Below, one piece after another: positions 14,111 through 15,866 of a DNA stretch of 64,000 nt (positions are counted from its first letter, which is position 1; every line of letters begins with the position of its first letter). This DNA comes from Archaeoglobus sp. JdFR-27 (GTDB lineage: Archaea; Halobacteriota; Archaeoglobi; Archaeoglobales; Archaeoglobaceae). A program made the translations under genes and the position numbers. The stretch spans positions 1-64,000 of the forward strand of contig MTMO01000040.1 of assembly GCA_002011235.1 (NCBI GenBank), given 5' to 3'. Below the pieces are notes generated by a model. The model had not been told where the DNA came from and searched no databases. It saw only the letters and a list, made by a program, of their open reading frames with translations.

Positions 14111-15046
14111 CTAAAAGAGAAATGCCCTTGCGAAAACGTAACCTAAAACCATAGCTACAAAGGGAGTGATAACCCAACTTAGGAATATTCTCTTTAAAAA
14201 GGGAGATTTAGCAGTTTTTGTGCTTTTAAGCATCCCAACACCTAAAATAGCACCTATCACACAGTAGGTTGTTGAAACAGGCATACCCAACGTTGTAAAG
14301 AGTAAAACGCTAAGTCCTGCTCCAAACTGAGCTGCAAAGCCAGAAAATGGATCAAGGGCTGTAATTCCCTTTCCAATCGTCTCCACAACCCTTCCACTTA
14401 GGAGAAAAGCTCCTATCCACAGGAGAATTGAACCCATAAAAGCAGCTTGTAAAGGTGTAAGCAATCCGAAATAAACAACAGGCCCTAGGGCGGTTGCAAG
14501 TTCATTGGCTCCCGTATTGTAGGCTATAACACTTCCACTGAGCAGAAGGAGATATCTTATACACCTTTCTGCTTTTAACGGAGGTATTTTTGAAATCCCG
14601 ATTATCAAAACTCTGTACACAAAAATCGAAAGAAAGAATGCTCCGATAGGAGATATTATCCATGATTCGACAATTTTCATAAGTGTATCTACATCGATAG
14701 AAACTCCGAAAGCTAACCCAGAGCCTACAAGACTGCTGACTATTGCCTGATGACTTGAAACCGGAACCTTTTTCCAGTTTGAAAGGACTATCGCAAGTGA
14801 AGATATTATCAGTGATATGCCTATTATCTCGATCCGGAGAGAAACCAGATCCTTCCCGACAGTTTTCATCACGCTGTGTCCTTGCAACACCATCCCTAAA
14901 AAAACAAGGAAGACCAGGAGGTATATCGCCCTTCTAAAACTTACTATTCCACAACCTATGGAGATCCCGTAAGAATTCGAAGAGTCATTTGAACCTATGC
15001 TGAATGATATGAAAGCTGCAGCAATTAAAGGAATTACTTCAAAAAT
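14111..15046 (-). CDS. PiT family phosphate permease with no standard start codon
   Basis: About 311 aa. The first ATG in frame is at 14893, but 51-52 codons upstream are open and encode the conserved PiT N-terminal helix and loop (AAAFISFSIGSNDSSNSYGI, compare FxxGANDxxNAFG), so the protein must begin upstream. That extension holds no ATG, GTG or TTG; after an in-frame TAG the first codons are ATC (15047-15049) and ATT (15044-15046), just after GGGGGAT. The second PiT repeat is seen at YNTGANELATALGP. About nine helices. The PhoU-like gene ends 9-12 bp upstream, so the two are coupled; substrate is probably phosphate. Confidence 0.85.
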   Translation of the reverse strand: MFEVIPLIAAAFISFSIGSNDSSNSYGISIGCGIVSFRRAIYLLVFLVFLGMVLQGHSVMKTVGKDLVSLRIEIIGISLIISSLAIVLSNWKKVPVSSHQAIVSSLVGSGLAFGVSIDVDTLMKIVESWIISPIGAFFLSIFVYRVLIIGISKIPPLKAERCIRYLLLLSGSVIAYNTGANELATALGPVVYFGLLTPLQAAFMGSILLWIGAFLLSGRVVETIGKGITALDPFSGFAAQFGAGLSVLLFTTLGMPVSTTYCVIGAILGVGMLKSTKTAKSPFLKRIFLSWVITPFVAMVLGYVFARAFLF

Positions 15047-15057
15047 GATCTATCCCC

Positions 15058-15696
15058 CTATCTTAAGCTAACATTTAGTATTTGAATCACATCAGCGGCA
15101 TCCTCGATCTTGTCACTGATATTAACGAGATTATCCAGAAAGTTTGAAAGAATATATCCTTCCCAGAAAGATTTGATGTCAATTTGTACCATTTTTGAAT
15201 GGATTTCTCTCTTAAGACCATCGATCTCCTGCTCCTTTGCCCTTAGCTTGATGGTTTTATCAGAAAGATCTGCCTCTTTTTCCAGTGAGTCAAATGCATG
15301 GTAAAGATAATCCACCATCTTGCAGTTTATTTCAGCAATCCTGAGACAAAGGTCTCTTATCTCAGGATTTATATTGGACATCATGTTGAAATAAACGGAT
15401 GTGTCCTCGATGAGATCTATGCTCTCATCAACAAGCTCAGCAAATCTGTAAAATTCAGCCCTAACAGCGGGTAAAAAAGCACCCTCATAGAGTCTTAATG
15501 CAATTTCTCTTCTTATTATATCGCCTGTTCTCTCAAGTTCACATATATCATAACTCAAGGAAGGGTCGTCAGCTTCTATTGCAATTTTCAGAGTTTCTGC
15601 AGCCTCACTGAGTATTTCGATATGTTCTCTAATAAGATCGAGTATCTCTTTCTCTTTTTCTCCACCAACCAGAATTTTTCTGATCCCTTTGAACAT
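15058..15696 (-). CDS. PhoU-like DUF47 (TIGR00153) phosphate-transport partner
   Basis: 212 aa, all-helical, with the PhoU-type pattern ELVDESIDLIEDTSVYFNMM and ANFLDNLVNISDKIEDAADVIQI-like C-terminal repeat. Members of this family sit next to PiT permeases and are thought to regulate them; the permease gene follows at once here. The ATG at 15696 is preferred over an upstream in-frame GTG at 15705 because AGGTGGGTG precedes it at good spacing. Confidence 0.85.
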   Translation of the reverse strand: MFKGIRKILVGGEKEKEILDLIREHIEILSEAAETLKIAIEADDPSLSYDICELERTGDIIRREIALRLYEGAFLPAVRAEFYRFAELVDESIDLIEDTSVYFNMMSNINPEIRDLCLRIAEINCKMVDYLYHAFDSLEKEADLSDKTIKLRAKEQEIDGLKREIHSKMVQIDIKSFWEGYILSNFLDNLVNISDKIEDAADVIQILNVSLR

Positions 15697-15866
15697 AACA
15701 CCCACCTGACTCCTAAAAATTCAGCTAATTCAATTACCAATCAAACATAAATACTATCGGTGGAGGATAAAAAGATTGTGAGTCAATAGGGGGTTTAGTA
15801 TGGTTTACGTTTTGTCTATGTGGTTTATATGGTTTAATTGGATGGTTGAGTGAGTCAGGTTAGGGT

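Follow-up and report, generated by a model that had tools for sequence, protein, structure and literature searches.

We found that the gene for a PiT-family inorganic phosphate permease of Archaeoglobus sp. JdFR-27 has no ATG, GTG or TTG ahead of its codon 52, and we predict with good confidence that its translation begins by Shine-Dalgarno (SD)-directed initiation at AUU (AUC in certain congeners) with the ordinary initiator tRNA, aided by a PhoU-like gene that ends just upstream. The gene lies in the window analyzed here, which comprises positions 1-64,000 of contig MTMO01000040.1 from a 2.36 Mb Archaeoglobus-type genome (G000) assembled in 67 contigs.

The permease is encoded on the minus strand at 14111..15046 (PHO4 family, Pfam PF01384, E 7.6e-59), with 311 codons counted from the proposed ATT start codon at 15044..15046 and a frame that is open from there to the stop codon at 14113-14111. 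Directly upstream on the same strand is the PhoU-like (PhoU_div/DUF47) gene (15058..15705), recognized by PF01865 (E 6.6e-40) and the list of open reading frames. The final base of its TAG stop (15060-15058, minus strand) doubles as the first G, at 15058, of the SD site GGGGG (15054..15058, minus strand), which is complementary, apart from one G-U pair, to the CCUCC at the 3′ end of 16S rRNA (GGATCACCTCCT, taken from the related genome G005). An in-frame TAG at 15050..15052 closes the permease frame just upstream of the start, and next to it stand an ATC codon (15049-15047) and the ATT, such that the minus-strand junction reads ...AGA TAG GGGGATAG ATC ATT TTT GAA GTA ATT CCT.... The first ATG in this frame (14893-14891, minus strand) is codon 52 counted from ATT, leaving codons 1-51 (14894..15046) upstream of any standard start. 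RNA folding of the PhoU-PiT junction showed nothing unusual (z 0.24). A run of 51 codons free of standard starts has a probability of about 7% by chance, with ATG, GTG and TTG together constituting 5.0% of codons here, and by itself such an absence is weak evidence. It goes beyond chance because three other genomes of the genus likewise have no standard start in the same stretch and share with this one a GGGGG-N7-ATT/ATC arrangement.

This arrangement emerged from a comparison of the same junction, as proposed in a preliminary description of the locus made from its letters, in five further genomes of the genus (G001-G005). The gene is present in four of them, giving a PiT-bearing set of G000, G001, G002, G003 and G005; the remaining genome, G004, is 80% complete and displayed only a distant paralogue. 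The PiT proteins are 87% (G003), 78% (G001) and 75% (G005) identical to that of G000, and the first standard start in the PiT frame falls at codon 52 in G000, 45 in G003, 52 in G001 and 60 in G005, the last being a closed genome of one contig of 2,076,931 bases. In all five PiT-bearing genomes GGGGG is followed by exactly 7 nt and then by ATT (G000, GGGGG-ATAGATC-ATT-TTT-GAA; G003, GGGGG-ACGAAGC-ATT-CTC-GAG; G001, GGGGG-ATTAACC-ATT-TTT-GAA) or ATC (G005, GGGGG-CAGTAAT-ATC-CTT-GAG; G002, GGGGG-TTAGTCT-ATC-ATA-GAA-CCA-ATG-GTT-GAG). The ATG of the sister-genus genes (e.g., ATG CTT GAA ATA ATC CCA in G023) is aligned with the ATT or ATC of G000, G003, G001 and G005. The start in G002 is ambiguous: an ATG follows the ATC there at codon 5, at the homologous position, and the gene may begin at that ATG with poor SD spacing. 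Counted from the first base of the stop codon that ends the PhoU-like gene, the PiT start lies 14, 35, 44, 25 and 44 nt downstream across the five genomes; the conserved element of the junction is hence the SD-to-start spacing, and the length of the PhoU-PiT linker varies freely. As a separate observation, the junction of G001 features, just upstream of PiT, a short tandem duplication (AGTCTTAGGTAAAAAGGG repeated), with the GGGGG site in the second copy.

The spacing of 7 nt is also that preferred by the genome at large. In a 703 kb sample of G000 with 663 genes, distances to 5′-proximal ATGs peaked at 7-8 nt for GGAGG, 7 nt for GGGGG and 5 nt for AGGTG, and the internal ATGs of the same sample had no such peak. 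The preliminary description had offered ATT and ATC together as possible initiation codons; we chose ATT (7 nt) over the ATC at 4 nt in G000 because 7 nt is the optimal spacing for GGGGG, and this choice is backed by the sister-genus alignment and by purifying selection on the codons that follow (see below). Counting against the proposed start, the SD strength of GGGGG is below that of GGAGG.

A variant of this explanation, which leaves the start codon unchanged, makes termination of the PhoU-like gene and local re-initiation at ATT/ATC the main route by which ribosomes arrive. Re-initiation had been raised in the preliminary description, and a supply of ribosomes from the PhoU-like gene is compatible with the layout, the PhoU-like stop being near the PiT start in all five species and the SD overlapping that stop codon in G000. 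As the main route, however, we consider it rather unlikely, since the stop-to-start distance ranges from 14 to 44 nt against a constant SD spacing, which makes the SD the conserved element, and since near-cognate starts are also found in the eS1 and aIF1A genes (see below).

Another alternative places the true start at the 14893 ATG, or at a GTG or TTG close by, and takes the stretch upstream to be untranslated or the gene to be decaying. This ATG is the first standard start and the one that annotation programs would pick. However, it has no SD (score 3, versus 15 at ATT), the first standard start in G005 is only reached at codon 60, and its product would be missing helix 1 and the GSND motif. 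These elements lie within the first 51 codons, because position 1 of the PHO4 profile falls at residue 17 and the match to the solved relative TmPiT (6l85) begins at residue 8; the preliminary description, which placed the N-terminal helix upstream of the first ATG, was accurate, as were its coordinates and codon counts. Profile positions 1-350 of PF01384 align with residues 17-302, which covers the full profile including the N-terminal G(A/S)ND repeat, and the N-terminal part of this match is included only with translation from ATT. The top NCBIfam match of the permease is a sulfate permease model with 150.7 bits, far under its cut-off of 400, and phosphate as the substrate is predicted from the family and from the neighborhood (the PhoU-like gene).

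The pattern of substitutions likewise argues against a start at 14893. Between species, codons 2-51 have a pN/pS of 0.07-0.20, versus 0.12-0.26 for the remainder of the gene, and the value for codons 2-51 is the lower one in every species pair. Between G000 and G005, it is 0.075 in codons 2-51 and 0.257 in the rest, and the differences in codons 2-51 fall 7, 1 and 40 times on codon positions 1, 2 and 3. Judged by these comparisons, codons 2-51 are under purifying selection and are hence predicted to be translated as protein, which renders a start at or near 14893 very improbable.

We assign an equally small likelihood to translation that continues beyond the PhoU-like stop by frameshifting, bypass or readthrough, which would join the PhoU-like and PiT proteins and dispense with a PiT start codon altogether. 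The two genes adjoin, with the PhoU-like stop 14-44 nt upstream and a run of G in between, as such a fusion would have it. Against this, in each species the PhoU-like gene has a stop codon that terminates its frame ahead of the G-run or right at it, the frames of the two genes differ, the PiT frame is itself closed by a stop upstream, and the spacing from GGGGG to ATT/ATC stays at 7 nt while the linker varies in length, which fits use of the G-run as an SD. Finally, a sequencing or assembly error that removed a normal start, also suggested in the preliminary description, might be suspected in a 67-contig assembly where a single base change would yield ATG, but is ruled out for practical purposes by independent assemblies of related species, among them the closed G005, in which this place is likewise devoid of standard starts amid different surrounding DNA.

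Returning to initiation at AUU/AUC, we posit that base pairing between GGGGG and the CCUCC in 16S rRNA would position the 30S subunit such that AUU (15046-15044) sits in the P site, where the ordinary initiator Met-tRNA, whose anticodon is CAU, would read it with a third-position mismatch; methionine would then be the first residue of the permease. A further share of ribosomes is probably delivered by the PhoU-like gene, whose translation ends 14 nt upstream. The initiator tRNA of G000 (AGCGGGG...CAU...CCCGCTA) has the anticodon CAU, begins with A, has an acceptor ending with U and displays three G-C pairs beneath the anticodon loop; a search of the same genome with ARAGORN for an unusual initiator found this normal CAU form, with several intron-bearing tRNAs left unresolved by the program. 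The simplest reading is that Met-tRNAi tolerates one mismatch once the SD puts the codon in the P site. Archaeal aIF1 disfavors non-canonical starts (PMC6237735), and because of this near-cognate starts should be weak and sensitive to aIF1. Low, aIF1-sensitive expression is accordingly to be expected of PiT, whose output would probably be kept low relative to that of the PhoU-like protein.

Several other genes of the lineage are likely to use the same kind of near-cognate initiation. We sought genes whose coding sequence extends 5′ of their first standard start in samples of 703 kb from G000 and 400 kb each from G005 and G009, and checked the candidates against relatives; homology was needed for this, as a tally of codons at SD-like sites alone is too noisy, with purine runs being common in coding sequence. 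This rough scan, a census covering about 30% of G000, yielded six candidates for near-cognate initiation from the roughly 663 genes sampled in that genome, and the start codons of all of them are one base away from AUG. In the gene for the ribosomal protein eS1 (S3Ae; G000:C13:44969-45616 in our genome, loci L176-L180), GGAGGGATTAA(A/C) is followed by ACG GCG in all five genus genomes; the eS1 genes of other genera mostly have ATG, and some TTG or GTG. In all five genus genomes, and in most relatives, the SD-placed codon of the aIF1A gene (loci L202-L222 and L334-L391) is CTG. Of 79 loci compared across the phylum, 50 have CTG as their best-placed codon (41 of these with a spacing of 7), 13 have TTG and 6 have ATG, and 29 of the 50 CTG loci have no ATG, GTG or TTG anywhere in the open 5′ stretch. 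The aIF1A gene of G000 itself (L205, G000:C13:94491-94658) is ambiguous, with an in-frame ATG 16 codons upstream.

More restricted cases are seen in three further genes. Topoisomerase VI-A (L262-L266) has CTG 9 nt from GGAGG in G000, G003 and G002, a TTG just before the CTG in G001, TTG in G005 and ATG in several other genera. A CfbC/NifH-like gene (L108:2516-3307, G000:C13) has ATT behind AGGGGTGATTCT in G000 only, and its relatives from other genera carry ATG at the position of this ATT or close to it. A DsrE-like gene (L288, G000:C13:80332-80571) has ATA behind GAGGTGGTAGG, again in G000 only, with ATG at the same codon in G003. Separately, two adjacent open reading frames on the minus strand of L156 in G009 (offsets 10327 and 10574) stand behind AAAGGAGGTGAGAAA and TTAGGGGTGAGAAA with the starts ATA and ACG, respectively, at an SD spacing of 7 nt; neither frame carries a family assignment. 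C-to-U editing was also considered; it could turn ACG into AUG but not AUU, AUC or AUA, and fails to explain the set.

Among the closest known systems is the infC gene for IF3 of Escherichia coli, which, as far as it is summarized in PMC9845219 (citing Butler et al. 1987), starts at AUU under translational autocontrol that is lost on changing AUU to AUG. Measured against that summary, the PiT gene is comparable in having AUU behind an SD, with a 3′-degenerate codon read by initiator tRNA; however, its product is a transporter rather than an initiation factor, such that the classic autocontrol does not follow, and the factors involved are archaeal. A closer parallel in these archaea is aIF1A with its CUG start, where autocontrol may apply. 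Among 61,358 ancestral AUG starts in 36 prokaryote groups, 1 switched to AUU and 2 to CUG (Belinky et al. 2017, PMC5622118). The cases described here resemble these switches in that AUG is swapped for a near-cognate codon, but differ in that the replacement persists across the species of a genus and in several genes. The machinery that would have to accept AUU, AUC, ACG and CUG is the one described for aIF1 proofreading, with the aIF1 of S. solfataricus discriminating against non-canonical starts (PMC6237735). When checked against other genera for a lineage-specific change or an odd start, the Archaeoglobus aIF1 displayed nothing obvious and is itself ATG-started throughout. In a search of open-licence papers, neither near-cognate starts in Archaeoglobus nor a CUG start of aIF1A turned up. 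Near-cognate starts are thus already known as a kind; new are their genus-wide conservation in a transporter, the ACG in a ribosomal protein and the CUG in aIF1A.

Archaeal annotation treats starts other than AUG, GUG and UUG as practically absent; with the starts proposed here, gene finders would truncate PiT, eS1 and aIF1A. Archaeal initiation would, on the reading favored here, tolerate near-cognate codons given a well-placed SD. Beyond this, we tentatively suggest, while thinking it somewhat less probable than its opposite, that CUG in aIF1A of much of the phylum, ACG in eS1 and AUU/AUC in PiT mark a gene set with deliberately weak near-cognate starts, whose output would track the start-codon proofreading factors. 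With these genes a direct test becomes possible of whether weak starts serve regulation in archaea, as in bacterial infC and eukaryotic eIF1. If true, these archaea would have their own version of the infC circuit of bacteria, broadened to include a ribosomal protein and, in Archaeoglobus, the uptake of phosphate.
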